Shown piece by piece: positions 13,668 to 40,958 of a DNA stretch of 51,016 nt; the first letter of the stretch is position 1; every line of letters starts with the position of its first letter. A model generated the notes under the pieces. That model saw nothing but the letters and a program-made list of their open reading frames with translations. It was not told the origin of the DNA and searched no databases. A program made the translations under genes and the position numbers. This DNA is from Lachnospiraceae bacterium (GTDB taxonomy: Bacteria > Bacillota > Clostridia > Lachnospirales > Lachnospiraceae): the NCBI GenBank assembly GCA_017561085.1, contig JAFZDQ010000084.1:1-51016 (forward strand), given 5' to 3'.

Positions 13668-15494
13668 TTATTTTTTTCCTGTTACTTCATAATTTTTATA
13701 AGCATCACAAACTTTTTTCGGGTCCCCGACCATTTGTAAAACGCCCTTTTCAATCCAAACTGCTACATTACAATTTTTGACGATTACATCAGGTGAATGA
13801 GAAACGATTAATACCGTAGAACCGCCATGAATCATTTCCCTGATACGCTGCATACTCTTTTCTCTAAAGAACATATCCCCAACGCTCAGAACCTCGTCCA
13901 GAATTAAAATATCCGGTGTATCACGCATCGTTGCTATTGCAAAACCAAGTCTGGAAACCATACCTGAAGAGAAATTCTTCATACGCTCATCCATGAATCC
14001 TTCCAGTTCTGCAAACGCTACGATATCATCATATTTTTCATCAATATATTCTCTGGTGTAACCGATAATGGCACCGTTTAGATAAACATTTTCCTTCGCA
14101 GTAAGTTCCATATCGAAACCGGTTCCCAGCGTCAACATCTGAACCTTACTTCTGTCCACTTCTACATGACCTTCCGTGGGCTGAAGTGCTCCTGAAACAA
14201 TCTTAAGCAAGGTACTCTTACCGGAACCGTTAGTACCGATGATTCCCACAACATCTCCTTGGCTGACACTAAAGCTGACATTATCAAGTGCTGTCAGATA
14301 ATGATAATGGTTTTGTCCCTTTACGGTTCTGATCATATATTCTTTTAAACTGGAGGATTCTTCCAGTGCTAAACGGAAACGCATGGTTACATTTTTAACC
14401 TTGATAATCTCCTGTTCCAGATTAATAATCTCAAAATCATCATCCTGTTTTTCTTCTATTTGTTGTTCTCTTAATTGCGCTCTTTCGTTTTTCCTATATT
14501 TTAAAAACCGAACAAAATATGCAATCATAAAAACAAATACCAGAAATGTCATAAGCCACAATAATGGACTTTTTCCTAAAAAAACAAAATCACGCTCGGT
14601 ACTGAAATTAAGTGCTTTATCCCATAATTCTTTAATCTTAACTACGAAAGATTCTTCCGTGCCCTCTTCTGAAACAGGTTCTTCTAAAGGTAAATCCGTT
14701 TCCTCCGGCAATGGTTCTTCTACCTCCTGTTGCACATCAGCAATCTCATTCTCCGGAGTTGCTGTTTCTTCCGGTTCATTTATAAGGGTCCTACGATCAA
14801 CATGAAGCGTATAGATACTTGTTTCACCGGTAGTTGCTTCTACCGTTACTGTTACTTCATTGGTCCCCATTTGAAGTGATGTATCCGATACACTGACCAC
14901 TGCATTTAAATCTACCGGTATATAAGATAATTCAATATTTTCTATATCCTCATCCACTTCTACTGAATATTCATATACATCCCGTGCAAAGTCTTCTACC
15001 TCTGTTCCGTCTATTTCAATCCGCTGTAATTCACTGCTTCCGGATTCAAAAATAGTAATAGGTGCAACTAACAACTCAGTAATATCTAAATCTTCCGGTA
15101 ATATATTTCCCGTCACGTCTCCAATAGACCTACACTGTGCTGAAATCACCTTAATGCTTGTACTTCCTGCTTTCAAAGGCTGGAAATGTAACATAATTTT
15201 ATTGGTTATATCAGTACCGGTTCCCTTGATACAAAGGCGGTTCCCTTCTTGCGAAGTGGCTCCGTTTAAGTAAAACAAAAGTTCTTCATCGTATTCCAAC
15301 CATACCTCGTATTCACCTACCGGAACCTCTCCATTGACATAAACACCAATCGGACACACTTTATCGGTATACCAGCGATAGCTTTCCGACCCAAACGTAA
15401 TACTTCCTTCCCGGGCATAAACAGTTTTTACCGGTATTAATATGCACACGAATAAAACCAGTGCGATATATTTCTTTATCTGCTTTATTTTCAT
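13668..15494 (-). CDS. Glycan-exporter ABC ATPase with extracytoplasmic N-terminal domains (Wzt/TagH-like)
   Basis: Energises export of the lipid-linked glycan with the permease just upstream. Unusually, only residues about 365-608 are the ATPase: GTNGSGKST (Walker A), FSSGMVSRLGFA (signature), DILILDEVL (Walker B) and VSHS (switch). Before it come a signal peptide (residues about 8-27, ending VYA), a beta-rich cohesin-like stretch (about 28-160), a cadherin-like beta-sandwich (about 162-235, LQRIEIDG...YSVEV...YTLHVDRR), an acidic linker (about 240-290) and one membrane helix (about 311-332) followed by RFLKYRK. The predicted layout is outside N-terminus, one crossing, cytosolic ATPase. The usual Wzt C-terminal glycan-binding domain is absent. 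The start has a weak AGGGATATTAAATT site. Domain names of the outer part are inferred. Confidence 0.88.
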   Translation of the reverse strand: MKIKQIKKYIALVLFVCILIPVKTVYAREGSITFGSESYRWYTDKVCPIGVYVNGEVPVGEYEVWLEYDEELLFYLNGATSQEGNRLCIKGTGTDITNKIMLHFQPLKAGSTSIKVISAQCRSIGDVTGNILPEDLDITELLVAPITIFESGSSELQRIEIDGTEVEDFARDVYEYSVEVDEDIENIELSYIPVDLNAVVSVSDTSLQMGTNEVTVTVEATTGETSIYTLHVDRRTLINEPEETATPENEIADVQQEVEEPLPEETDLPLEEPVSEEGTEESFVVKIKELWDKALNFSTERDFVFLGKSPLLWLMTFLVFVFMIAYFVRFLKYRKNERAQLREQQIEEKQDDDFEIINLEQEIIKVKNVTMRFRLALEESSSLKEYMIRTVKGQNHYHYLTALDNVSFSVSQGDVVGIIGTNGSGKSTLLKIVSGALQPTEGHVEVDRSKVQMLTLGTGFDMELTAKENVYLNGAIIGYTREYIDEKYDDIVAFAELEGFMDERMKNFSSGMVSRLGFAIATMRDTPDILILDEVLSVGDMFFREKSMQRIREMIHGGSTVLIVSHSPDVIVKNCNVAVWIEKGVLQMVGDPKKVCDAYKNYEVTGKK

Positions 15495-15508
15495 AATTTA
15501 ATATCCCT

Positions 15509-16282
15509 TTATACTTTTTGTAGCACCCTTGTTTTCATCTTATTGAAATATATTTTTCCGACTAAATAGATTCCGATGCTCCACACAAACAATCGTGCCC
15601 ATTCTTCGGCCGTAGGCAGTGCGCCGTCCAAGATACATTTCCTTGTACAAACGATATAGTTATATACAGGATTTCTAATGATTACTTCCTGCACCATTGG
15701 AGAAGTACTATCTACCGGATAGAAAATTGCACATAAGTACATCCATATCGTTAATAACACGGAATACAAATGCTTAATATCTCCAAACAATACATACAAA
15801 ACGGAAAGCATATATCCTATTCCCAAGGAGAACATAAATAACCCTGCGGTATAGATAAACAAAAGCAACATGTACAATGTGGGCTTAATTCCGAAAATCA
15901 CCAACATAATCACATATGCCACTAAGGAATATCCGTAATTCGCCAATGCAGTACAACTTCTTGATAAAGGGAATACCTGCATAGGTAATTTAACCTTAAT
16001 CAGCAAGTTTTTGTTGTCTACCAATGCTGTCATTGCAGAATTAGTTGCTCCCGTAAACAGTGACCACAAAATACTTCCCGTCAAATAATAAATGGGAAAA
16101 TTCTCAATACTTCTTTTAAAAATTGTTGAAAAAATCATAGACATTACTGCCATAGACAGAAGCGGATTTAATACGCTCCATAAAATCCCAAGATATGATC
16201 TTGCATATTTTCTCTTAATTTCTCTTGATACCAGTTCTTTAATTACAAAGATATATTGTTTTGCCCGTTCACCACGTTGCAA
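15509..16282 (-). CDS. ABC-2 type glycan export permease (Wzm/TagG-like)
   Basis: Membrane partner of the ATPase encoded 14 bases downstream; together they should flip and export the finished lipid-linked polysaccharide. About six hydrophobic segments are visible, and the N-terminus carries the family pattern LVSREIKRKYARSYLGILWSVLNPL. Length (about 258 residues) is normal. Start choice: GTG at 16291 lies directly on the Shine-Dalgarno-like bases, while TTG at 16282 sits 8 bases after GAGG in GAGGTGATTATT, an excellent match to the 16S tail; I take TTG. The upstream RDG protein's stop overlaps this ribosome site, so the two are probably coupled. Confidence 0.88.
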   Translation of the reverse strand: MQRGERAKQYIFVIKELVSREIKRKYARSYLGILWSVLNPLLSMAVMSMIFSTIFKRSIENFPIYYLTGSILWSLFTGATNSAMTALVDNKNLLIKVKLPMQVFPLSRSCTALANYGYSLVAYVIMLVIFGIKPTLYMLLLFIYTAGLFMFSLGIGYMLSVLYVLFGDIKHLYSVLLTIWMYLCAIFYPVDSTSPMVQEVIIRNPVYNYIVCTRKCILDGALPTAEEWARLFVWSIGIYLVGKIYFNKMKTRVLQKV

Positions 16283-16292
16283 AATAATCACC

Positions 16293-17672
16293 TCATTTCA
16301 TCTTCTTTCGCAAATACAAAACATACTTATAAAGGGCACAATGCACAAGTTCCCTTCTTCCTGCCTTATCTACCAGCATCACGCTCGCTTCCGGCCAGGC
16401 GCTTTCCCGTACGCTTTTTCCCTTTTTCAGATATATGTTTATAAACTTATTTATCAATCTGTTCGCTTTGATTTCTTTATATGTAAGATTTGTGGCAAGT
16501 TTTTGTGTCGTTTCACCTATAACATCATCACAAAATACATAATCCCCATAGTTAGATGCTTCCAGCCTCGTTGGTTTACCCATAAAATTCTTCAGAAGCT
16601 TTGTAGCTGTCGGTAAGAAATCATTTTTCGACCAAACTGCATTTTCTTCCTGCTTATTTAATCTTTCAGCTAACATTTCTGCATATTTAATTAAATATGC
16701 CGTACTTTTCTCTACTTTCTCGCAATTCGGATTTATATCCTTTTCCAAAACCGGCGTATATCCGTATGTCCCCCACTCAAAACCAACAGTCATTCCTTCA
16801 GGCGAACTAAATATACATTCAAATAAATTATTGTTAAAATATACTTTACGACGGAGCATATTTTCCGGTCTGAAATACCAAACATGATACGAATCTCGGT
16901 CTACATTCTTCGGATATTCATACATGCCGAAATAATAACCTTCTAATTTCCCCTGATATCCCATACTTCTCAGAATATGGAGAAAAGATTTTTGCATACT
17001 TCCGACCCAACCACTATCTACCAACGCATAAGGAACATCATTCAACATTCCTTCCTGCCTCAAATAGCCGCTTACATTCGGATATTTATCCCTTGAATGG
17101 GATACCATTGCGTCCATAAACACTGAACAATTTTTTAATATCGGAGCCAGGGTTTTCACCTCTTTATGTGACAAAACAGCTGTCATTTTATCAGCATATC
17201 CTGTCAATTCTCCTACTAACTTTGCTTCAGACTCACTAAGTCCTGCTCTATCCATAATTTTGGCAAAGGTTACATTCATTCCGCCAAGGCAAATATATTC
17301 CAAACTTTTTTCATATAATAAGCAATACTCTGCACTTCTCAATGCATATCTGGAACAATATAAATAGCAACATTCAATGGGCAGATTTAATCTGATACAA
17401 AATTCATTTGCAACCTGATACATGGAATATCCGTCTCTTGCCAAAAAATACAATCGTTTTTTTCCGTTTAAAACAGCATCCTTTAATACCCACAGCACGT
17501 AGTTACACATAATGGGGGCAATTACGAAAAATTCCGTCATATCCCTTTTTTCTTTCAAAAAAAGTGTTTCAGATATTTCCAACAGCATCGGTTCTTGACT
17601 CAAAATCTTCCGATACTTCCTGAGACGTTTTTCCTGCTCCGCTTGAATTTCCATTTTCATTTTGTACTTCAT
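16293..17672 (-). CDS. Uncharacterised RDG-motif protein, paralogue of the C-terminal half of the HAD protein
   Basis: About 459 residues, no signal peptide or membrane helix. It shares a run of motifs in the same order with the C-terminal half of the protein at 11547-13649: YFLARDGY, YCSRYA, VDSGWVGS, FSSPEG and EWGT. No HAD nucleophile motif is present, so this is the freestanding version of that domain. Function unknown; presence of two copies in one operon argues for a real step in glycan assembly. A TTG eight codons upstream (17696) is possible, but ATG at 17672 has GGTGAGAG at proper distance. Even so the gene overlaps the upstream glycosyltransferase by 104 bases. Confidence 0.75.
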   Translation of the reverse strand: MKYKMKMEIQAEQEKRLRKYRKILSQEPMLLEISETLFLKEKRDMTEFFVIAPIMCNYVLWVLKDAVLNGKKRLYFLARDGYSMYQVANEFCIRLNLPIECCYLYCSRYALRSAEYCLLYEKSLEYICLGGMNVTFAKIMDRAGLSESEAKLVGELTGYADKMTAVLSHKEVKTLAPILKNCSVFMDAMVSHSRDKYPNVSGYLRQEGMLNDVPYALVDSGWVGSMQKSFLHILRSMGYQGKLEGYYFGMYEYPKNVDRDSYHVWYFRPENMLRRKVYFNNNLFECIFSSPEGMTVGFEWGTYGYTPVLEKDINPNCEKVEKSTAYLIKYAEMLAERLNKQEENAVWSKNDFLPTATKLLKNFMGKPTRLEASNYGDYVFCDDVIGETTQKLATNLTYKEIKANRLINKFINIYLKKGKSVRESAWPEASVMLVDKAGRRELVHCALYKYVLYLRKKMK

Positions 17673-18513
17673 ATCTCTCACCAAAATGTTTTTCAAATGT
17701 GTGATACAACTTTTTTACCCCTAAAATAAGCAAAGACGGCGTCACCGCAGCCAAAAGTGGTCTTATTACGAACAACCAACCTACAGGGAATAAAATCCCT
17801 AATTCTTTAAAATTCCGATATCGCAAACGCATTTCGTCAATTCTGTATTTGAATTTTCTTTTTTTATATGAGTTATTATCTTCCCTGTAATAAATTAATT
17901 CCTGTTGGATGTTATATCCCCGATAATCACATTTGTACAAATGCATAAATAATTCATAGTCTTCACATCGTAAAACTTCCTTGGATGAACAATAAGTAAT
18001 CGTTCCGTCAAACACACTTCTTCGAATCATTACCGTGGGATGAATATACGGAGAAAACCGTAAAAAATTAAGTTCATCCGGTGTTTCCGGCATTTTCCTG
18101 ACGCCCCAACAGTTTCCGTTTTCGTCAACCAACTTGGCATTGCTTCCTACAAATGCCACTTCCGGATGTTCTTCCAGATACTTATATTGCACTTCCAATC
18201 TGTCCAAAGCACAAAAATCATCATCATCCATTCGAGCCAAATATTTTCCTCTGGCCACATCTATGCAAGAATTCAGCGAGTATGCCAATCCGTGATTAAC
18301 CGGATTGTTAATCAGAACAATCCGGTTATCCATAAGGGCATATTCCTGCAAAAATTCATATACCTCGCCATCAGAACCGTCATTATAAATAATAAATTCA
18401 AAGTCCTGAAATGTTTGATGTAAAATGGACTGTACCGCCTCATCCAGTTGTATCTTATTTTTTTGATTATAGATACTCATAATCACACTGATTTGAGGCC
18501 TATTCTCATACAT
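17569..18513 (-). CDS. Family 2 glycosyltransferase
   Basis: GT-A glycosyltransferase of 314 residues. ISVIMSIYNQKNK starts the fold, IIYNDGSDGE binds nucleotide and YLARMDDDDFC carries the DXD metal site; GKYLARMDDDD is typical of rhamnosyl- and galactosyl-type GT2 enzymes, but the donor cannot be fixed. A hydrophobic stretch near residues 250-275 could touch the membrane. The ATG follows GAAGGTGTAATT. The last 30 or so residues are polar, low in order and lie within the 104-base overlap with the next gene, so this tail may be a late extension. Confidence 0.88.
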   Translation of the reverse strand: MYENRPQISVIMSIYNQKNKIQLDEAVQSILHQTFQDFEFIIYNDGSDGEVYEFLQEYALMDNRIVLINNPVNHGLAYSLNSCIDVARGKYLARMDDDDFCALDRLEVQYKYLEEHPEVAFVGSNAKLVDENGNCWGVRKMPETPDELNFLRFSPYIHPTVMIRRSVFDGTITYCSSKEVLRCEDYELFMHLYKCDYRGYNIQQELIYYREDNNSYKKRKFKYRIDEMRLRYRNFKELGILFPVGWLFVIRPLLAAVTPSLLILGVKKLYHTFEKHFGERYEVQNENGNSSGAGKTSQEVSEDFESRTDAVGNI

Positions 18514-31412: not shown

Positions 31413-31441
31413 ATTATACTGCTAATCATTCTATTTTTAAA
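31413..31441 (-). promoter_or_regulatory. Promoter of the TPR/DUF4037 gene
   Basis: Minus-strand TTTAAA (31436-31441), 17-base spacer, TATAAT (31413-31418). The -10 box is perfect; the -35 has four of six consensus bases. It sits about 50 bases before the preferred start. Confidence 0.5.
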
Positions 31442-31450
31442 TCCCAAAAT

Positions 31451-31489
31451 AAAAAAGATTGTACAAAGTTATCTGCTTCGTACAATCTT
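31451..31489 (-). terminator. Terminator of the five-gene unknown operon
   Basis: Perfect 10-bp arms AAGATTGTAC / GTACAATCTT (31455-31464 and 31480-31489) with a 15-base loop, followed on the minus strand by a T-run (AAAAAA at 31451-31456 on plus). It lies 64 bases past the stop of the last operon gene. Confidence 0.7.
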
Positions 31490-31552
31490 CAGCTTCTTTC
31501 ATTTTCATTGAATTATTATGCGGACACCGTATACACCTATGCCGTCTCCACC

Positions 31553-32149
31553 TTATTCCGTGGCCATGTCCGCTTGTGCCGTAGCCGCAGCCACGGTATC
31601 CGCTACATCCACGATATCAGGACCTTCCGCAAAGGCTTCCGCATTGTCTGCAACCTCCATGGGGTCTTCACTTACTTTTTCTTCTTCCTCTTGCCATAAT
31701 GTATCGTATTCTTCTTTTTCTTTTGCCATTACACCGATATTTTTTGCTGCCTGGTACATCTCCATACTGAATTCCATCAGTTTCTTTTCATCTGCAGCCG
31801 GTACAATACCACCTTTCATAATACGCCGCGCCACTTCCATGATTTTGCCCATATCTTCGGCATATTCTTTCATCGCATCGCCTTGTTGCTCGGCAGAAAC
31901 CATATTTGCGGTAGCTGACCACTGCTCCAACAGTTTTTCCATATACCCCTTATACTCATCCAATTTGGTATTTACTGCCTGGGAAGTAAGTTCTAAAGTG
32001 GCCGCTTCCTTTGCAAAAAGATTACTGCCATCCGGCGTCGTGTTTATCTTGTGCTCCAGTTCTTTTTTCTGCTTTGCAAGGGCAAGCTGTTTCTCATGAT
32101 ATGATTTAATCTGCAGATTATAAGTCCTTCTTGCTTCTTCGATTTTCAT
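31553..32149 (-). CDS. Unknown coiled-coil protein, last gene of LytTR-linked operon
   Basis: I do not recognise a family. 198 residues, no signal peptide or membrane segment. Residues 1-170 are strongly helical with heptad-like spacing (SYHEKQLALAKQKKELEHKI) and methionine-rich patches; the C-terminal 35 residues are acidic and Ala/Val-rich. The ATG follows GGGAGATGACGGA. It is 35 bases downstream of the 274-residue gene and ends before a clear terminator, so it closes the operon of five soluble, coil-rich proteins. Confidence 0.72.
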   Translation of the reverse strand: MKIEEARRTYNLQIKSYHEKQLALAKQKKELEHKINTTPDGSNLFAKEAATLELTSQAVNTKLDEYKGYMEKLLEQWSATANMVSAEQQGDAMKEYAEDMGKIMEVARRIMKGGIVPAADEKKLMEFSMEMYQAAKNIGVMAKEKEEYDTLWQEEEEKVSEDPMEVADNAEAFAEGPDIVDVADTVAAATAQADMATE

Positions 32150-32184
32150 TCCGTCATCTCCCTATGCTCTGTTCCAAAAACTAA

Positions 32185-33009
32185 TTAAAGCGATACGTCT
32201 ATTTTCACGGTTTTCTTCTCTTCTCCGGACTGTTTCTTCTCCAGTTTAATCATTTCCTCCAAAATCATTCTTTCTGCTTCCGCCGGATTACGTTTTGCCG
32301 GATTATGTTTTTCGTTCGCAGCTGCGCCTTCCTGATTATCCGCTTGTGCATTCGTTTCTGTATCCGTCTCTGTCACACTTTCTGCGATATTTTCCGCAGG
32401 CTCGGTTTCTGTGGCTACATTTTCTGCCGGCACACTTTCCTGTGATTTTGCCTCTGCTTTCTTTGCTTCTAAAAGTTCTTCTTCTCTGGGCATTTTTTTA
32501 TAATCTGCACTTTTCGTAAAAGCATGATAAATTTGCGTCGTCTTGGTTGCCTCTCCCAAAATCCGCTGTGCCTCTTTTAGTTTTTCACTTTTAGGTATAT
32601 TGGGATTATTAACAATCGACTTTAGTTCGGATAATTTCCCGTTCATCCTATTGATGTGAAGCCTCTCCGCTTCTTCCTTGGTTTTACAGTTCTTAAGCTT
32701 CTTTTCGTAAGCCTCCTGTTCTTGTTTATCCGCTTTGTACTCCATATATAACTTCGGATCTCTGGCCCGAAGCTTCTCTTCCTCTTCCGGACTTAAACTC
32801 TGACCACTTTGAATCTTTGCATAAATCGCACTATATTCATTTCCTTCACGCTCTTTTTCAAGCTGCTCCAGATAGATTTGGAGCTGCTTTTGTTCAGGAG
32901 ACAATTCTTTTACTTCCTTCTTAAAAAGATTACCTGATGCTTTCTTTTGCTCCCATTTCTGCGTCATTTGCATCATTTTCGTAGTATTGTATATGGTTCC
33001 TGAAATCAT
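32185..33009 (-). CDS. Unknown coiled-coil protein with C-terminal KIDVSL tail
   Basis: Unrecognised. 274 residues, no membrane segment. It begins MISGTIYNTTKMMQM, then a highly charged helical region (SPEQKQLQIYLEQLEKEREG, LSPEEEEKLRARDPKLYMEY, KTKEEAERLHINRMNGKL), a Thr/Ala/Glu-rich low-complexity stretch (about 195-245), another charged helix, and the ending TVKIDVSL. That ending resembles HVDVRL of the neighbour at 33167 and GFDFKV of the protein at 33963. LSPEEEEKLRARDPKLYMEY is a pattern seen in other Lachnospiraceae unknowns. Start has GGAGGTATACT. Confidence 0.75.
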   Translation of the reverse strand: MISGTIYNTTKMMQMTQKWEQKKASGNLFKKEVKELSPEQKQLQIYLEQLEKEREGNEYSAIYAKIQSGQSLSPEEEEKLRARDPKLYMEYKADKQEQEAYEKKLKNCKTKEEAERLHINRMNGKLSELKSIVNNPNIPKSEKLKEAQRILGEATKTTQIYHAFTKSADYKKMPREEELLEAKKAEAKSQESVPAENVATETEPAENIAESVTETDTETNAQADNQEGAAANEKHNPAKRNPAEAERMILEEMIKLEKKQSGEEKKTVKIDVSL

Positions 33010-33166
33010 AGTATACCTCCATGTATCTTCTATGATAAATCCGTTTATCTATACTCTGTCATATTGTATATCGGTCAGATAAATGAAAAAGTTAATTTCT
33101 TCCAGAACCAAGAATCAAATTTCGCGTTAGTTCCTCTACAGCACGAGGTTACACCAGAAACAGCAC
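33010..33166. other. Gap of 157 bases within the five-gene operon
   Basis: No gene and no copy of the TTGTTGTGAA operator. It holds a small perfect dyad GATAAA / TTTATC (33034-33049) and AT-rich bases that could include a secondary promoter, but none could be read with confidence. Confidence 0.35.
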
Positions 33167-33949
33167 TTATAAGCGAACATCCACATGTGTATATGTAACC
33201 GTATCCGACGTAGGTTCTTCTGCATTTTCTGTTATATCTGCAATCTTTGTTTGCTCAATATCCTCCACAACCTTATCCTCTTTTTCATTAGAAACAGCGG
33301 TCTTCTTATCGGTCTTTTTATCTTTATCATCTGTTTTTTCAGCCTGTCGGTCTGCTTTCGCCGCTTCTTCAAGTTTTTTATTCGCATCAGATAAAGTATT
33401 TAATTGTGCTGTTTCTGCCTCGGATGCCTTCTCCTGAACCTCTGCAAGTTCCTCTTTCTTCTTTTCTACATCTCCGCCTCGGGCTGAATCTAACTTAATT
33501 TCAGCCTCCAGTACACCTGCTTTTCCTTCCATTTGACCGGATACACTTCCTTGTATTTGTGCCTGTGCCATCGCAGAATCAGCTGAAATAATAGCAGTCA
33601 TGCTGGCCAGTGACAATCCGGAACTTTTCTTTCCTGCTTTAGGTGTTACATTTTTACTTCCCCCAAACAAATCTTCCATTGCGGAGCCCTTAGGCTGTTG
33701 TTTTTCTTTTCTTTGCTCCATTTGGTGCTGACGCAACTGATTATTCAAATCCGTAATCTGCTGCTGGATTTCCTGACGCTTTTTCATTTTTTCTTCCATG
33801 CTCATCTCTTTATTTGCTGAAAGTTCCTGTAACTGTTTTTGGGCATTTACAATCTGACTCTGTATATTTTTGCTGACCGCGTCATTTGCCTGCATCCCAT
33901 TCATTCTGCCAATTTGAGTATTGTTTCCATTCAATCCGTTTATTTTCAT
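33167..33949 (-). CDS. FlxA-like coiled-coil protein
   Basis: 260 residues with no signal peptide. The N-terminal third resembles FlxA-like proteins: after an Asn/Gly-rich start (MKINGLNGNNTQIGRMNGMQ) comes a long helix with SQIVNAQKQLQEL, KMKKRQEIQQQITDLNNQL. A serine/alanine patch follows (about 105-140), then two further charged helical stretches, and the tail VTYTHVDVRL. FlxA of enteric bacteria belongs to the flagellar regulon, but its role is not known and I do not claim one here. A start ten codons upstream is possible; ATG at 33949 has AAGAGGAATCGTAAT. It overlaps nothing and follows its upstream neighbour by 13 bases. Confidence 0.72.
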   Translation of the reverse strand: MKINGLNGNNTQIGRMNGMQANDAVSKNIQSQIVNAQKQLQELSANKEMSMEEKMKKRQEIQQQITDLNNQLRQHQMEQRKEKQQPKGSAMEDLFGGSKNVTPKAGKKSSGLSLASMTAIISADSAMAQAQIQGSVSGQMEGKAGVLEAEIKLDSARGGDVEKKKEELAEVQEKASEAETAQLNTLSDANKKLEEAAKADRQAEKTDDKDKKTDKKTAVSNEKEDKVVEDIEQTKIADITENAEEPTSDTVTYTHVDVRL

Positions 33950-33962
33950 ATTACGATTCCTC

Positions 33963-34634
33963 TTATACCTTAAAATCAAATCCTGATATCAACGATGTGG
34001 ATATATTACCGGCCATCATTCTCTGTGCCATTATTTGGGATATACTTTCTACGCTTGAAGCTGTAAATGTAACGGAATAATCATTAGATTGCATCAGATT
34101 CTCTATCCGTATTTCAGCCTGTTTTTTCTCGGCTCTCTTCTTCTCCTCCCGCCGCTTTATTGCCTTTTCTTCCTCTACATTCTTTTCCTCGGCTTTCCGT
34201 TTTGCATTCTCTCTGGCTATCTTTCCGTCCGGATCATTCGTACATCCGCTTATCATAGTAATATTGCCATTATCGTCAAACAAAACATTGCAATATGTCA
34301 TTACCGGATTCCCCGGCATTGTTTTCGTATATTCTACAGAACGTTTAATACACTCAGGAATAGCTACTAAATTTTCCTCTAAAAATGCTGCTTTTTCCGG
34401 GTTATCCATACATTTCTTTAAAAATGCACCCGAGACACTTACTGTTACCGGTACTCCTTGCATAGATGTTTTTCCAGTATTCATGTAACTGTATTTTTCC
34501 TGCAAATACTTAGAATAGTCATTGATATTTTTGAATCCGGTTTTAATGACTTCTTTTCTGGTTACTCCCGGTGTTGACGTCTTCAAATCCATAATCTGTG
34601 ATATCACACCACTATCTACATTATTTATTTCCAT
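33963..34634 (-). CDS. DUF6033-like protein (second of two)
   Basis: 223 residues, soluble. It seems a shorter cousin of the next upstream gene product: a start with SGVISQIMDL, a middle with VTVSVSGAFLKKC (equivalent to INFVVNPKFLEQL in the neighbour), a DDNGNITMISG segment (equivalent to DENGNWGGWTISK), and a Lys/Glu-rich helix. It ends ISGFDFKV. The name DUF6033 is from memory and not certain. Start choice: ATG at 34640 sits one base after AGGAGG; ATG at 34634 has seven bases and is preferred. Gap to the upstream gene is about 15 bases. Confidence 0.68.
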   Translation of the reverse strand: MEINNVDSGVISQIMDLKTSTPGVTRKEVIKTGFKNINDYSKYLQEKYSYMNTGKTSMQGVPVTVSVSGAFLKKCMDNPEKAAFLEENLVAIPECIKRSVEYTKTMPGNPVMTYCNVLFDDNGNITMISGCTNDPDGKIARENAKRKAEEKNVEEEKAIKRREEKKRAEKKQAEIRIENLMQSNDYSVTFTASSVESISQIMAQRMMAGNISTSLISGFDFKV

Positions 34635-34649
34635 TTTCATTCCTCCTAT

Positions 34650-35621
34650 CTACATCAGTGAAGCCAACGCAAACATGTTCTCCTCCTCCGGAGTGGCTTC
34701 TCTGTCTTCCACCTGACCCATTCTGTTCTGTGCCATTGCCATCAACATTTTCACTTTCTCCAGTTCTGTTTCGTCACAAAAACCTTTTGTAATGCCATCC
34801 TTTACCTCCTGCATATCGCTTTCTATTTCAGCAATCACTGCCTGAAGTTGCTCCCTTGTTTTGGCTGCAGAAATTTTTCTTGCAAGTTTGCCTGCATTTA
34901 CACCTATCTTGGTTGATATCGACTCACTTTCACTCTCTGATGCTTCTTCCGCCGTCTCCGTCCCTACCTTTTCTGCCTCCATTTGGTCTTCTTCCAACCA
35001 CTTTACTCGAAGGTCTTTAAATCTGTCTCCAAAGAATGCTTTCAATTCCTGATCCGCTTGCTTTTTCTCCTCTAATTTTTCCTGCCTTATTTTCTCTGCA
35101 TAATCTGTCATATCCTGCAATACAGAACCTTGATTAACAGGCTTACTAATTGTCCATCCTCCCCAATTGCCGTTTTCATCACAAAACCATCCCTGACTCA
35201 CAATCTCCCGTCCATTCGCAAGCTGCTGCTCTCTAAAGCGCCTGGAAAAGTCATTGAGAAAGTTAATATCTTCTTTGAATTGCTCTCTTGCTGTTTCATC
35301 AGTTCCTAATTGTTCTAAGAATTTAGGATTTACCACAAAATTAATATCTGATGAATTACCATAGGTTTGTCCGTAACTTGCCGTTCCTACAAAAAATTTA
35401 GTTCCACTGAACTGCTTTTCCATTTCCTGTATGTAAGAAAGTCCTTTTGATACGGAATCGGAAATGGATTTTTCATAGCTTACACCTTTCTTCTCCCTGT
35501 TTTTATCAATTAGTTTCCTGGCATTTCCGTCTGCTTCTTTGCGAATTTTTTCATTCACTTTTTCTTCTTTGCGGACGTATTCATTTATACCACTATTCAT
35601 TACTATAGATGAAATTGACAT
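34650..35621 (-). CDS. DUF6033-like protein, first gene of the LytTR-linked operon
   Basis: 323 residues, no signal peptide or membrane helix. The start MSISSIVMNSGINEYVRKEE leads a Lys/Glu-rich helix, then a globular stretch (GTKFFVGTASYGQTYGNSSD, INFVVNPKFLEQLG, WFCDENGNWGGWTISKP), a second charged helix, a Ser/Glu-rich linker (about 220-240) and a final helical segment. I associate it with DUF6033, a family known only by sequence in clostridia; that label is from memory. A very strong ribosome site (GGAGGAGGATAAGG) precedes the ATG. Upstream lie the LytTR-type direct repeats at 35725-35756, so it is the first gene of the controlled operon. Confidence 0.72.
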   Translation of the reverse strand: MSISSIVMNSGINEYVRKEEKVNEKIRKEADGNARKLIDKNREKKGVSYEKSISDSVSKGLSYIQEMEKQFSGTKFFVGTASYGQTYGNSSDINFVVNPKFLEQLGTDETAREQFKEDINFLNDFSRRFREQQLANGREIVSQGWFCDENGNWGGWTISKPVNQGSVLQDMTDYAEKIRQEKLEEKKQADQELKAFFGDRFKDLRVKWLEEDQMEAEKVGTETAEEASESESESISTKIGVNAGKLARKISAAKTREQLQAVIAEIESDMQEVKDGITKGFCDETELEKVKMLMAMAQNRMGQVEDREATPEEENMFALASLM

Positions 35622-35724
35622 CCTTATCCTCCTCCTTGAATTTATGTGTAGAACTCCGTTTCTATCTATCTCGATACTTCTGTTACTTCCTATTTCGGAA
35701 TCCTAAACTTCACCCTAAACCGAC

Positions 35725-35756
35725 TTGTTGTGAACCAACCTTTTTCTGTTGTGAAC
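35725..35756. promoter_or_regulatory. LytTR-type direct-repeat operator in front of the DUF6033-like operon
   Basis: TTGTTGTGAAC at 35725-35735 recurs as CTGTTGTGAAC at 35746-35756, exactly 21 bases later. Paired 9- to 10-base direct repeats with a two-turn spacing are the known layout for AgrA/LytTR regulators. The same repeat pair occurs before the response regulator gene (38008-38040). No good -10 box is visible at the matching distance, which fits a promoter that depends on an activator. Confidence 0.72.
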
Positions 35757-35771
35757 ATATACTTTGCAAAA

Positions 35772-35811
35772 TAAAACGGCCTAATCCATACCTTTTCGTA
35801 CGGCTCAGGCC
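35772..35811 (-). terminator. Terminator of the kinase/response regulator operon
   Basis: On the minus strand a 14-pair hairpin (one mismatch, a few GU pairs) starting GGCCTGAGCC with loop GAAAAG and ending AGGCC is followed by GTTTTATTTTG. It separates the two-component genes from the downstream operon, so the latter needs its own promoter. Confidence 0.7.
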
Positions 35812-35823
35812 TTTAATAAACTA

Positions 35824-37191
35824 TTATTCAATCATCAACATAACAGCTAAGGTAAAGTTGTTTTCATCCAAACTAATATCGATATCACCATAATATTTCT
35901 GTGCTACTTTTCGTATATTTGTAAGACCAAATCCATGGTTGCTTTTATCAGTCTTGGTCGTTTCCGGAAGTCCTGTTTCAGCATCTAACACAACCACTTT
36001 ACTGATATTGTTTTTTACCACCATAATATATACGTTTTTCTTACGATAAGCAGAAACAGATATATATGGATTTGAACATCCCTCTACTGCCTCAAAGGCA
36101 TTTTCGATTGCATTGTTCAAAATCACATTAATATCAAAAGCATTGATATTCGTATCAACGGGATAAATAAATGTACAATCAAAATCAATTCTTTTTTCCG
36201 CCGCTTCCTTCTGCTTCAGCGTCAGAATCACATCTGTTACCGGATTACCGGTCTTAATTCCTTCCGCACTCTCAACAAAAGCCGCCTTTAGCTTTGCCAA
36301 ATACTTCTCACATTCATCCGATTCCTTCTTTGCTAAAAGATTTTCCACCACGGAAATATGATTTCCCATATCGTGCTTTAATGCCCGAATGTCCCCATAC
36401 AATTTTTCCACTTCACCTATATGCTTTTGGGTATTTTCTATCTGCTCTGTTAATAGAATATTCTCTTGTTCTTCACGCTGCTTTTCCTTGATTTTCTGGT
36501 AAATCACAATTGCAATAAGTATCGTTGCAAAGGAAACCGTCTGATAGATTACCCGCAAAAATGTATAGCCCGGATGAACATCCCAAATATAAACCTGCAT
36601 ATCTTTTATATACACATTGGAAAAGAAATTGAATGTAAAATAACCTGTCATGACCGTCATCATCGTTGCAAACAATAACAGTAATTCTTTCCCTGAAATA
36701 TCTTCTTTTTTGTTCACATACACCTTGTGTATCATACGGATTACAAAATACATCACGCATATAGCGATTCCGTAATAGATCATTTCAACAAAAGCATATG
36801 TAACCACCTGGAAAATCGGATGATTAAGCATATAAGAAGAATTAATAAATACTGCAAACATAATATCCCGCAGCACAAGTGTTACGCCATAAACCATCCA
36901 CCTGAACAGGTACATGACAGTGGCCAAAAATGCTTTTTGCCTGATATTACGCTTTTCCAGTAAGCACATGCTAATCCATGCCACCAAAACACCTTGTAAA
37001 TTCGGATACGTAATCTCCTGAGGAATGCAAAAAAACAAAAGCATCACTACCGTATAGCATATACCTACATAGTGCGGTTTGTTTTTCATAAACGGCTTTA
37101 CAAATCTGTAAAACAACCAGCCTTCTAAAACGTAGTTTAAAATTACTGTCGAATGACTCACAATTCCCCAATACATATCGATGTATTCCAT
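35824..37191 (-). CDS. GHKL-type sensor histidine kinase (AgrC/VirS-like)
   Basis: Membrane sensor that phosphorylates the adjacent LytTR regulator. 455 residues. Residues about 1-240 hold six or seven hydrophobic segments with little outside loop, like peptide-sensing AgrC kinases. A coiled linker (about 240-265) leads to the H-box ALKHDMGNHISVVENLL, then the GHKL ATPase with N-box NVILNNAIENAFEAVEG and G-box HGFGLTNIRKVAQKYYG. The phospho-acceptor is the His of LKHDMGNH. Six bases separate it from the regulator. No AgrB or AgrD-like peptide gene is near, so its signal is unknown. Confidence 0.9.
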   Translation of the reverse strand: MEYIDMYWGIVSHSTVILNYVLEGWLFYRFVKPFMKNKPHYVGICYTVVMLLFFCIPQEITYPNLQGVLVAWISMCLLEKRNIRQKAFLATVMYLFRWMVYGVTLVLRDIMFAVFINSSYMLNHPIFQVVTYAFVEMIYYGIAICVMYFVIRMIHKVYVNKKEDISGKELLLLFATMMTVMTGYFTFNFFSNVYIKDMQVYIWDVHPGYTFLRVIYQTVSFATILIAIVIYQKIKEKQREEQENILLTEQIENTQKHIGEVEKLYGDIRALKHDMGNHISVVENLLAKKESDECEKYLAKLKAAFVESAEGIKTGNPVTDVILTLKQKEAAEKRIDFDCTFIYPVDTNINAFDINVILNNAIENAFEAVEGCSNPYISVSAYRKKNVYIMVVKNNISKVVVLDAETGLPETTKTDKSNHGFGLTNIRKVAQKYYGDIDISLDENNFTLAVMLMIE

Positions 37192-37197
37192 AAATTA

Positions 37198-37905
37198 TTA
37201 CCCTCTCTTCTGCATGAATTTCATATATTTTTTGACAAATTCAGGGTAATTCTGCTTTGCCATAATCACATTCCCTTTTTCCAGATATATCGTGGATGCA
37301 TCATATTTTTCCACATATTTCAAATTCACAAGATATGCCCTGTGGGGTCTGAAAAAATCATCTCCCGTAAGCGCCTCAAGATCTGACATTTTCCCGTAAT
37401 ACTCAATGTTTTCGTCCATTTTATGAATTACTATCTTACGGTTAAAAACTTCTGCATAAACAATATCTTCCAGCATTACTTTTATGTGTACACCACCACT
37501 GTTAATCATCAGATACTTGTCTTCATTTTTACAGGTCCCTACCCCCTTTGACCCCAATTCTTTCACTGCCTTATTAAGAATTTGTGCAAGCTTCTCATCA
37601 TTTACGGGCTTTACCAAATAATGAAAGGCCCCCACATCAAATGCTTGGAATACATACTCTTCCGCTGCAGTTACAAAAATGAGAATCATATTTTTATCCT
37701 TTTTACGCAGTTCTACTGCTGTTTCCATACCGTTTATCTCCGGCATCTGAATATCCAGCAATAATATATCTATGTGCTCTTCAAATAAAAGCAGTTCTTC
37801 TCCTGAAGAGAAACAAATAATCCTCGCATTCGGATATAGTTTTTTCACTTTATCTTCAAGCAGTTCTCTTATGTTTTTTTCATCATCACAAATTGCTACA
37901 CGCAT
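37198..37905 (-). CDS. LytTR-family response regulator (AgrA/VirR-like)
   Basis: 235 residues: receiver domain (about 1-120) with the acidic pair DDEKN, phospho-acceptor Asp in DILLLDIQMPE, the conserved Thr in ILIFVTAAEEY and Lys in HYLVKPVND; then the LytTR DNA-binding domain (about 135-235) with IVYAEVFNRKIVIH, FRPHRAYLVNLKYVEKY and the NYPEFVKKYM ending. LytTR proteins bind pairs of short direct repeats; such a pair lies upstream of this gene at 38008-38040 and before the downstream operon. First gene of its two-gene operon, so probably autoregulated. Confidence 0.93.
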   Translation of the reverse strand: MRVAICDDEKNIRELLEDKVKKLYPNARIICFSSGEELLLFEEHIDILLLDIQMPEINGMETAVELRKKDKNMILIFVTAAEEYVFQAFDVGAFHYLVKPVNDEKLAQILNKAVKELGSKGVGTCKNEDKYLMINSGGVHIKVMLEDIVYAEVFNRKIVIHKMDENIEYYGKMSDLEALTGDDFFRPHRAYLVNLKYVEKYDASTIYLEKGNVIMAKQNYPEFVKKYMKFMQKRG

Positions 37906-37971
37906 AGGGCACTTCCTTTATCTAAATTATCTTTTCGGACCTGTTGGTTACTTAATTCTCTTTTCGCGTAT

Positions 37972-38000
37972 ATTATATCGTACCCCATACTATGTTTCGA
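37972..38000 (-). promoter_or_regulatory. Promoter of the LytTR/GHKL operon
   Basis: Minus-strand TCGAAA (37995-38000), 17-base spacer, TATAAT (37972-37977). A perfect -10 with a poor -35 lies 7 bases downstream of the direct-repeat operator, the expected set-up for an activated promoter. The transcript would start about 60 bases before the gene. Confidence 0.68.
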
Positions 38001-38007
38001 TACTACC

Positions 38008-38040
38008 TTGTTGTGAAATGACCGTTTTTTGTTGTGAAAT
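38008..38040. promoter_or_regulatory. LytTR-type direct-repeat operator in front of the response regulator
   Basis: TTGTTGTGAAAT at 38008-38019 recurs as TTGTTGTGAAAT at 38029-38040, spacing 21 bases, same strand. The core GTTGTGAA is identical to the pair at 35725-35756. Situated just upstream of the weak -35 at 37995-38000. Confidence 0.75.
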
Positions 38041-39611: not shown

Positions 39612-40958
39612 TTATTCCTGTTCTCCGGATGTTTCAGGCAAAGCTACCATTTCTTCAACAGATTCTTCCGTCACAGGGGCAACTTCCTCAGCCGGCATTT
39701 CCACCGCAGATATGACTTCTCCGGCTGCCTCTTCTGCCACAGATACAACTTCTTCAGCTGCCTCTTCTGCCACAGACACAACTTCTTCAGCTGCTTCTTC
39801 TGCCACAGACACAACTTCTCCGATTGCTTCTTTTGCCGCAGACACAGTATCTTCCGTCATCTCCGCTACCGCAACGACTTCCTCTGTAACGACTTCCTCT
39901 GTAACGACTTCTTCCGTAGCCACACTCCCGCCAGCCGGCACAGTTTCTTCTCTCTTCGGAATCGTAAACTGTGCGTCCGCATCATAAGGATAAACCACTC
40001 CCCATTCTTTTCGCAGTTCATCCATAAACTTCATAACACGGATGGATTCGTAATGAGGCATTTCCACACATTCCAGTTCACCCTTGGAAATAGCCTTCAT
40101 ACAGGCTTCCACCTCATATTCATACCCGCTGATTTGTTTCGGACATTTATATTCAGCCAGCTTTTTGTAAGAATTATCAAATACCGTAATACTCTGGAAA
40201 TTGTTAATATTCTCAACAACCGCAAAGCCCTTCGTTCCGTAAATCATACCTTTTCTGTCACTGACGGAGACCATGGTACTGTTCAGATGAGCCACTTTTC
40301 CGTCCGGATAATAAAGCGTAATGCTGTTTTGTTCATCGACTCCGGTAGCCGCATAAGAGCAGGAAGATTCCACTCTGTCATAATGGGTTCCCAGCATCAT
40401 AAATGCAAACGTAAGGGGATAAATTCCCAAATCCAAAAGCGCTCCGCCGCAAAGCTTCGGCTCCTGCATACGGGGCAAATGTCCTACCACATAACCTAAA
40501 TTCGCCGTAAGAGTCTTAATTTCACCGATTACGCCGCTTCCGATTACCTGCTGCATGGTGGCAACCATAGGCATATATCTTGTCCAAATTGCTTCTGCCA
40601 AAAATACATTTCTTTCCCTGGCCAGTTTCACAAGTTCCTCTGCCTGTGCTGCATTTGCGGTAAATGCCTTCTCACAAAGAACCGGTTTCCCGTGTAAAAT
40701 ACAAAGTTTGGCATTTTCAAAATGCTCTGAATGCGGTGTGGCGATATAAATCAAATCCACCTTTTTATCCTTTACCAGGTCCTCATAAGAACCGTATGCT
40801 TTTTTACATCCGTATTTGCCGGCAAACACATCTGCGCTCACCTGCTGTCTGGATGCTACCGCATAAAGCTTAACACCCTTCATTTTCTTAATTGTTTCCG
40901 CCATAACTCCGGCAATATTACCGGCTCCCATAATTCCGATATGAAACTTTTTAAACAT
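39612..40958 (-). CDS. Gfo/Idh/MocA family oxidoreductase with repetitive acidic C-terminal tail
   Basis: NAD(P)-dependent dehydrogenase acting on a sugar or polyol; substrate unknown. Residues about 1-125 are the Rossmann domain (IGIMGAGNIAGVMAETI), with the active lysine in HGKPVLCEKAFTANAAQAEEL; residues about 130-330 the C-terminal alpha/beta domain with GGALLDLGIYPL. The family usually ends near residue 330. Here some 110 more residues follow: three 5-residue VTEEV repeats, then three to four 11-residue AEEAAEEVVSV repeats, ending in a Pro/Glu tail. The DNA shows matching 15- and 33-base repeats. The tail is unlike the rest of the protein and may be a flexible helix. Confidence 0.88.
   Translation of the reverse strand: MFKKFHIGIMGAGNIAGVMAETIKKMKGVKLYAVASRQQVSADVFAGKYGCKKAYGSYEDLVKDKKVDLIYIATPHSEHFENAKLCILHGKPVLCEKAFTANAAQAEELVKLARERNVFLAEAIWTRYMPMVATMQQVIGSGVIGEIKTLTANLGYVVGHLPRMQEPKLCGGALLDLGIYPLTFAFMMLGTHYDRVESSCSYAATGVDEQNSITLYYPDGKVAHLNSTMVSVSDRKGMIYGTKGFAVVENINNFQSITVFDNSYKKLAEYKCPKQISGYEYEVEACMKAISKGELECVEMPHYESIRVMKFMDELRKEWGVVYPYDADAQFTIPKREETVPAGGSVATEEVVTEEVVTEEVVAVAEMTEDTVSAAKEAIGEVVSVAEEAAEEVVSVAEEAAEEVVSVAEEAAGEVISAVEMPAEEVAPVTEESVEEMVALPETSGEQE
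39735..39915. repeat. In-frame tandem repeats (33-bp and 15-bp units) in oxidoreductase tail
   Basis: Units like GCTGCCTCTTCTGCCACAGA repeat every 33 bases three to four times from about 39725 to 39850, coding for an 11-residue Ala/Glu/Val repeat. GTAACGACTTCCTCT repeats every 15 bases three times near 39886-39925. Length is a multiple of three in both cases, so copy-number change would keep the frame. Confidence 0.7.

Follow-up and report, generated by a model that had tools for sequence, protein, structure and literature searches.

A candidate LytTR regulon with sigma-28-type promoters and FliK-like protein tails in a Lachnospiraceae bacterium

The 51,016-nucleotide stretch of DNA analysed here, referred to as the window (contig JAFZDQ010000084.1 of Lachnospiraceae bacterium assembly GCA_017561085.1, positions 1 to 51,016 of the forward strand), carries on its minus strand a gene for a LytTR response regulator, an adjacent gene for a GHKL sensor histidine kinase and, beyond a terminator, a five-gene operon, with the same direct-repeat operator before the regulator and before the operon. 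The regulator possesses receiver and LytTR domains and the kinase a GHKL ATPase domain, all above the curated Pfam cut-offs, and the N-terminal half of the kinase looks hydrophobic when judged by eye. The parts of the locus, from operator 1 downstream, are as follows.

38009 to 38038, minus strand: operator 1, predicted autoregulatory site before the LytTR regulator; direct repeat TTCACAACA-n12-TTCACAACA, kept before the regulator in relatives.
37972 to 37981, minus strand: -10 element of the regulator promoter, ACGATATAAT; sigma-28-like CGATAT overlapping a TATAAT.
37198 to 37905, minus strand: LytTR response regulator, 235 residues (PF00072, 72.1 bits; PF04397, 55.8 bits).
35824 to 37191, minus strand: GHKL sensor histidine kinase, 455 residues (PF14501, 86.6 bits).
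35772 to 35811, minus strand: intrinsic terminator at the boundary between the kinase gene and the operon, recognised by folding energy and T-run.
35726 to 35755, minus strand: operator 2, before the five-gene operon; direct repeat, kept 3′ of the kinase gene in relatives.
35693 to 35721, minus strand: operon promoter, with a GTTTA element and a sigma-28-like -10 element TCCGAAA (35693 to 35699).
34650 to 35621, minus strand: gene 5, DUF6033 protein, 323 residues (PF19498, 36.4 bits, cut-off 25); C-terminus ALASLM, lacking the tail described below.
33963 to 34640, minus strand: gene 4, DUF6033 protein, 225 residues (PF19498, 27.5 bits, cut-off 25); C-terminus GFDFKV, with the tail.
33167 to 33949, minus strand: gene 3, FlxA-like protein, 260 residues (PF14282, 59.4 bits, cut-off 26.3); C-terminus HVDVRL, with the tail.
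32185 to 33009, minus strand: gene 2, coil-rich protein of no family, 274 residues; C-terminus KIDVSL, with the tail.
31553 to 32149, minus strand: gene 1, coil-rich protein of no family, 198 residues; C-terminus ADMATE, lacking the tail.
31440 to 31505, minus strand: terminator closing the operon (fold z -5.2).

The operator is a 30-bp direct repeat with a period of exactly 21, which reads TTCACAACAGAAAAAGGTTGGTTCACAACA on the minus strand at 35726-35755 and TTCACAACAAAAAACGGTCATTTCACAACA at 38009-38038. An earlier sequence-only reading of the window had described both repeat pairs, and they are present as it stated; the 10-base core that it gave them, TTGTTGTGAA, fits three of the half-sites and not the fourth, the exact core common to all four being TGTTGTGAA. 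Its further claim that the pair occurs only twice holds for the whole genome, as a search of 2,955,146 bases allowing up to two mismatches in the 18 fixed positions returned these two places only, and the reversed pattern, used as a control over the same bases, had no match. The terminator that it placed between the two units is real: region 35762-35820 of the minus strand folds at -21.2 kcal/mol, compared with -9.85 kcal/mol for shuffled sequences (z -4.8), with a T-run after it, and the end of the operon folds likewise.

Conservation of the operator was followed through samples of the same bacterial family that comprised 299 genomes for the core pattern, 397 for the kinase and 150 for DUF6033. 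The core pattern, with at most one mismatch, has at least one match in 48 of the 299 genomes. Many single matches fall within or next to unrelated genes; these were left out of the module count. At three loci (L124, L077 and L071) large proteins stand beside single operator sites, and of these proteins the first residues were inspected. Matches paired at a distance of 2.2-2.3 kb occur in the window genome and in four others. The five such places in those four all consist of a regulator-kinase pair with an operator on either side; a FlxA-like gene is the first or second gene downstream at four of the five, and the fifth stops at a contig end. Among the 397 genomes, 52 have a kinase homologue at E ≤1e-40, and examination of 60 loci yielded 50 regulator-kinase pairs, kinases without an adjacent regulator homologue (e.g. 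L230 and L231) having been dropped; one of the 50 is a near-duplicate (L066), and two show low similarity (L071 and L073). A motif-free search for 9-base repeats in the 100 flanks of these pairs found 17 exact repeats (9/9) and 52 at 8/9 or better at period 21, while the other periods from 12 to 40 gave 0-2 exact and 2-14 at 8/9 or better. When the degenerate motif TTCACnnC was applied with a period of 21 and up to two mismatches in 12 positions were allowed, 72 of the 100 flanks contain a site, compared to 0.8 expected from shuffles, and both sites are present in 27 of the 50 pairs. This paired direct repeat, its halves about two helical turns apart, is a conserved operator.

The bases that vary in the half-sites do so from locus to locus and match within a locus. 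With the near-duplicate dropped and the window added, agreement was seen at 71 of 108 positions versus 46.6 (0 of 10,000 permutations), and after thinning to regulators of less than 65% identity (n = 15) it was seen at 42 of 60 versus 27.6 (0 of 20,000). The simplest cause of such co-variation would be that one regulator reads both sites, so that the earlier proposal of a single regulator serving both promoters through the same operator gains support from conservation, co-variation and conserved gene order. That the repeats are instead the site of some other factor, or have arisen by chance, is barely credible in view of their uniqueness in the genome, their conservation at both positions and their co-variation at each locus. 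The window genome contains a second, paralogous module on another contig (C56, locus L080, G000:C56:5000-24900; 13872-17973), which holds a FlxA-like gene and a FliD_C gene and has its own variant of the operator before its regulator (TTCACTTCA...TTCACTCCA); such a difference could keep the two modules of the genome apart. A tandem pair of modules with four tailed DUF6033-type genes between them was seen at a further locus (L151, 1-8000).

The promoters that follow these operators bear a common mark. A -10 element of the CCGATAT type (CCGATAT or CCGAAA) lies at a fixed distance from the operator: among 40 regulator promoters 24, and among 32 operon promoters likewise 24, have CCGA 27-29 nt past the second half-site, compared with 0.33 and 0.21, respectively, in shuffles over positions 25-31. 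With A or C accepted as the first base over those positions, the counts rise to 30/40 and 29/32. The aligned consensus is gTTTA...TCCGAAA before operons and TCCGATATAATA before regulators, and the two elements of the window, ACGATATAAT and TCCGAAA, are each one step off the sigma-28 consensus. The place of the -35 element is taken by GTTTA in operon promoters and is without consensus in regulator promoters; the sigma-28 -35 element TAAA, sought approximately 15 nt upstream, was not found in either promoter set. In this genome TIGR02479 identifies a FliA sigma factor (266.7 bits, cut-off 189.6), and the genome's own flagellin promoter reads TAAAGTA-N12-TCCGATATATAT. The consensus for Bacillus sigma-D is TAAA-N14-16-GCCGATAT, which 16 of 30 flagellin upstream regions of the family match in at least 10 of 12 positions, compared to 2.1 in shuffles, in a set in which some of the start points are probably wrong; seven, that of the window genome among them, read TAAAGTA. 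These comparisons assign the -10 elements to the sigma-28 type, with the -35 element missing and an activator site just upstream, and predict a LytTR regulator that acts at sigma-28-type promoters.

A flagellar association is also apparent from genome content. FlhB (PF01312) scores above its cut-off in 212 of the 397 genomes but in all 52 that have the kinase, and in 81 of the 150 genomes but in all 45 with a DUF6033 match (hypergeometric P 2e-16 and 3e-16, respectively, with kinship ignored). AgrB, the partner of GHKL kinases in Agr systems, served as a control; it is present in 65 of the same 150 genomes, only 44 of which have FlhB. Judged from these counts, the module is restricted to flagellated genomes within the sample.

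The housekeeping sigma factor deserves consideration as the reader of these promoters. Because ACGATATAAT also contains a perfect sigma-A -10 element, TATAAT, as does the regulator-promoter consensus CCGATATAAT, sigma-A may read the regulator promoter of the window, and together with the missing TAAA this would fit a real operator and regulon whose promoters are served by the housekeeping sigma, with CCGA unrelated to sigma-28 and the flagellar link due to lineage only. Yet the TCCGAAA of the operon promoters is not a sigma-A -10 element, the position of CCGA is as fixed there as in the regulator promoters, TCCGATAT occurs in the flagellin promoter of the same genome, and FlhB accompanies every sampled kinase. 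We regard this alternative as unlikely.

The operon that is predicted to respond to this regulator encodes proteins of the coil-rich type, as the sequence-only reading had noted. Their role, unknown in that reading, narrows to one linked with the flagellum and probably with its export apparatus. That reading, which treated regulator, sensor and target as one module, did not pick out the sigma-28-type promoters or the connection of the output to the flagellum. In relatives, the recurrent operon families are FlxA-like proteins, which occur in more target operons than any other, DUF6033 proteins, a family of approximately 250 residues and one of approximately 200 residues. Three of five scanned members of the 250-residue family, among them the protein of the second module of the window genome, contain FliD_C (PF07195) above the cut-off, and the other two fall just below it. 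Genes 1 (31553-32149) and 2 (32185-33009) of the window have no profile match above any cut-off, and assigning them as divergent members of the FliD_C or 200-residue family (F4) was rejected for lack of profile support.

Several of these otherwise unrelated families end in the same way, with the pattern [VILFM]-D-[VILFMYT]-x-[VILAMGF]-COOH (e.g. VDVRL, IDIRV, FDVKA and VDVSI), and this ending is shared with FliK. In the operon of the window it is present, in its strict form, on genes 2, 3 and 4 of the five. Among 1112 complete open reading frames (ORFs) of at least 100 residues from the fetched loci, 117 have the strict tail; 111 of these are among the 155 members of six families and 6 among the 957 other ORFs, counts that are descriptive for those families from which the pattern was drawn. 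The tail is carried by 50 of 67 DUF6033 proteins, 27 of 33 FlxA-like proteins and 10/11, 6/6 and 4/9 members of three further families. FliK and the E. coli proteins were inspected only after the pattern had been set. The FliK of the window genome ends GNTVDFTA, 21 of 30 FliK loci of the family match when D or N is accepted in the second place, and across the phylum 12 of 30 loci have the strict and 25 of 30 a relaxed form. In E. coli, both FlxA (TIDIYV) and FliK (GVDIFA) have the tail. The six tailed ORFs outside the families include gene 2 of the window, a second Flg_hook protein and an ORF in a flagellar gene cluster.

In Salmonella, the export switch is reported to depend in an important way on the last five residues of FliK (PMC10965912), for which a 2026 paper proposes an action on the C-terminal domain of FlhB (PMC13344023). 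The tail probably brings the operon proteins to the export gate. Alternatively, it may be a general sorting or stability signal whose reader is not FlhB but, for example, a protease or a receptor at the cell surface, FliK being cleared or sorted in the same manner. Its presence in several families without relation to one another, and in proteins encoded elsewhere, is what would be expected of a portable signal. This explanation seems rather doubtful, because nearly all carriers belong to flagellum-linked families, because three of the only six carriers among the other 957 ORFs are gene 2, the Flg_hook protein and the flagellar-cluster ORF, and because of the reported tie between the last five residues of FliK and the switch.

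Further sequences with or without this ending were noted in the window genome and its relatives. A second match to Flg_hook besides FliK ends FDVRA (C42; L303:1979-3766), whereas a weak Flg_hook match located directly before a flagellin gene is without the tail (C44; L304:379-3420). The flagellar gene cluster also holds, downstream of fliA, a 108-residue ORF without a known family that ends FDIKI and thus has it (C70; L306:7357-7683). DUF6033 genes at other loci (L033-L062), taken irrespective of LytTR neighbours, are mostly tailed, and some stand beside unrelated tailed genes.

Our analysis suggests that the locus is likely to be a signal-gated, sigma-28-linked accessory flagellar regulon, the products of which reach the flagellar export gate; its regulatory and flagellar parts rest on comparison and the action of the tail on inference. 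The GHKL kinase would sense a signal and, presumably through phosphorylation, activate the LytTR regulator, which in turn is predicted to bind the 30-bp direct repeat at its own promoter and at the promoter of the five-gene operon. Since the operator stands just upstream of a sigma-28-type -10 element that lacks a TAAA -35 element, the bound regulator probably substitutes for the contact at -35 and thereby aids the start of transcription by sigma-28 RNA polymerase. Expression would then require both the signal and free sigma-28, which is available when the flagellum has passed the hook stage. The products would be accessory flagellum-linked proteins, and their tail would dock them at the C-terminal domain of FlhB in the export gate, for their own export or for tuning of the export switch.

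Besides the TATAAT in the regulator promoter and the missing TAAA, several findings weigh against this reading. Both operator sites were not seen at the threshold used in 23 of the 50 pairs, in 14 of which the kinase scores below 240 bits and in 9 of which it does not, one of the 9 being cut by a contig end. Because the genomes are related, the P values for co-occurrence overstate their independence. The FliD_C family, the clearest flagellar homologue of these operons, is not recognisable in the operon of the window and has the strict tail in 0 of 17 members, 8 of which end like VDKEV. The tail is also missing from genes 1 and 5 of the window, is strict in no more than 14 of the 29 FliK-cluster proteins, and is found in 6 of 12 FlxA-family proteins above the cut-off elsewhere in the phylum (two of them from the window genome) and in 1 of 15 below it.

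The proposed regulon offers a first functional context for FlxA-like and DUF6033 proteins. Roseburia faecis and R. inulinivorans are among the gut bacteria that carry such modules. From the shared ending, it seems that the C-terminal residues of FliK form a code common to many flagellum-linked proteins and not peculiar to FliK. More tentatively, and with less than even confidence, we propose that the tail of FliK, FlxA, DUF6033 and several unnamed families is a portable export-gate code, that flagellated Lachnospiraceae employ signal-gated LytTR/sigma-28 modules with distinct operator variants to release FliK-tailed proteins in sets by which flagellar secretion is retuned or reused, an outside signal thereby altering the exports of the flagellum, and that FlxA of E. 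coli is a lone member of the same kind. The tail can be tested in E. coli by way of flxA.

E. coli FlxA (PF14282) belongs to the same family as gene 3 and shares with it the tail and a link to sigma-28. Its gene differs in its location, within the cryptic prophage Qin, with no LytTR gene annotated in the surrounding 7 kb. One report describes flxA as FliA-dependent and without an obvious function in motility (PMC4183435). The hook-length control protein FliK has in common with the products of the window the pattern of its last five residues (VDFTA in the window genome, VDIFA in E. coli); none of the five window proteins has a Flg_hook domain (PF02120), which rules out that they are FliK. The C-terminal domain of the FliD cap recurs in module proteins of relatives and of the second module of the window genome, although these proteins of approximately 250 residues match part of the profile only and are without the strict tail.

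Among known two-component systems, E. coli YpdA/YpdB and BtsS/BtsR resemble that of the window in combining a membrane kinase, a LytTR regulator and a paired direct repeat. YpdB is reported to bind a direct repeat of GGCATTTCAT (PMC4847170), and BtsR to activate a pyruvate transporter gene (PMC10653868); the operator bases in the window differ from these, and its targets are flagellum-linked proteins at sigma-28-type promoters. An assignment of the regulator as the BtsR equivalog (PRK11697) was rejected at 86.7 bits against a curated cut-off of 246. AgrC/AgrA shares with the window the GHKL kinase, the LytTR regulator and predicted autoregulation, an architecture that would also fit a peptide quorum-sensing module of the Agr type with these proteins as an incidental output, and an AgrA of C. 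difficile is reported to affect flagellar genes (PMC3754575). Such a module is improbable here, as AgrB has no match in the window, the single AgrB match of the genome lying on another contig (C118) and thus not beside the pair (AgrD was not searched), and the regulator scores 51.9 with the AgrA equivalog model, the cut-off of which is 400. An Agr system is therefore not supported.

The sequence-only reading had called the module undescribed, and consistent with this the titles and abstract openings of open-licence literature yielded no description of DUF6033, of FlxA-like proteins or of a LytTR/direct-repeat module in Lachnospiraceae; for FlxA together with LytTR they yielded only one paper, unrelated by its title. 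Within the same scope, literature on FlxA with FliK or the flagellum, on LytTR with flagellar genes and FliA, and on Roseburia flagellin with LytTR likewise contained no account of such a module. We regard the module as a variant of the LytTR two-component kind, and the shared tail may be the larger discovery.

The reach of the operator was also examined by a scan of a named genome collection that was blind to proteins and gave at least 117 matching stretches, 80 of which were examined; it shares some contigs with the 299-genome sample (e.g. L160 and L191) and is not fully independent of it. Among the matches listed, 23 are from Bacillota or unassigned gut metagenome-assembled genomes (MAGs), and 16 of these lie at a homologous regulator gene, kinase gene or both, including loci of Roseburia faecis M72, R. 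inulinivorans DSM 16841, Eubacterium sp. AF22-9 and a Butyrivibrio MAG; the remaining 7 have neither gene at the site. The other 57 listed loci are mostly from Flavobacteriaceae. A regulator-family gene upstream together with a kinase-family gene downstream was present at 30 of the 57 and at least one of them at 36, and the one example identified from each flanking family is a LytTR response regulator for the upstream and a TPR histidine kinase for the downstream family. The operator thus appears to be LytTR-linked in two phyla. Conserved coding sequence was rejected as the source of the Flavobacteriaceae matches, only 4 of the 57 listed sites being inside an ORF of at least 100 residues. One such locus (L113, 2649-2677) and 29 similar Flavobacteriaceae loci have the operator between the regulator-family and TPR histidine-kinase-family genes.

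Elsewhere in the window, at 39612-40958, an oxidoreductase-like protein is encoded whose C-terminal end carries a degenerate EEVVSVAEEA repeat.

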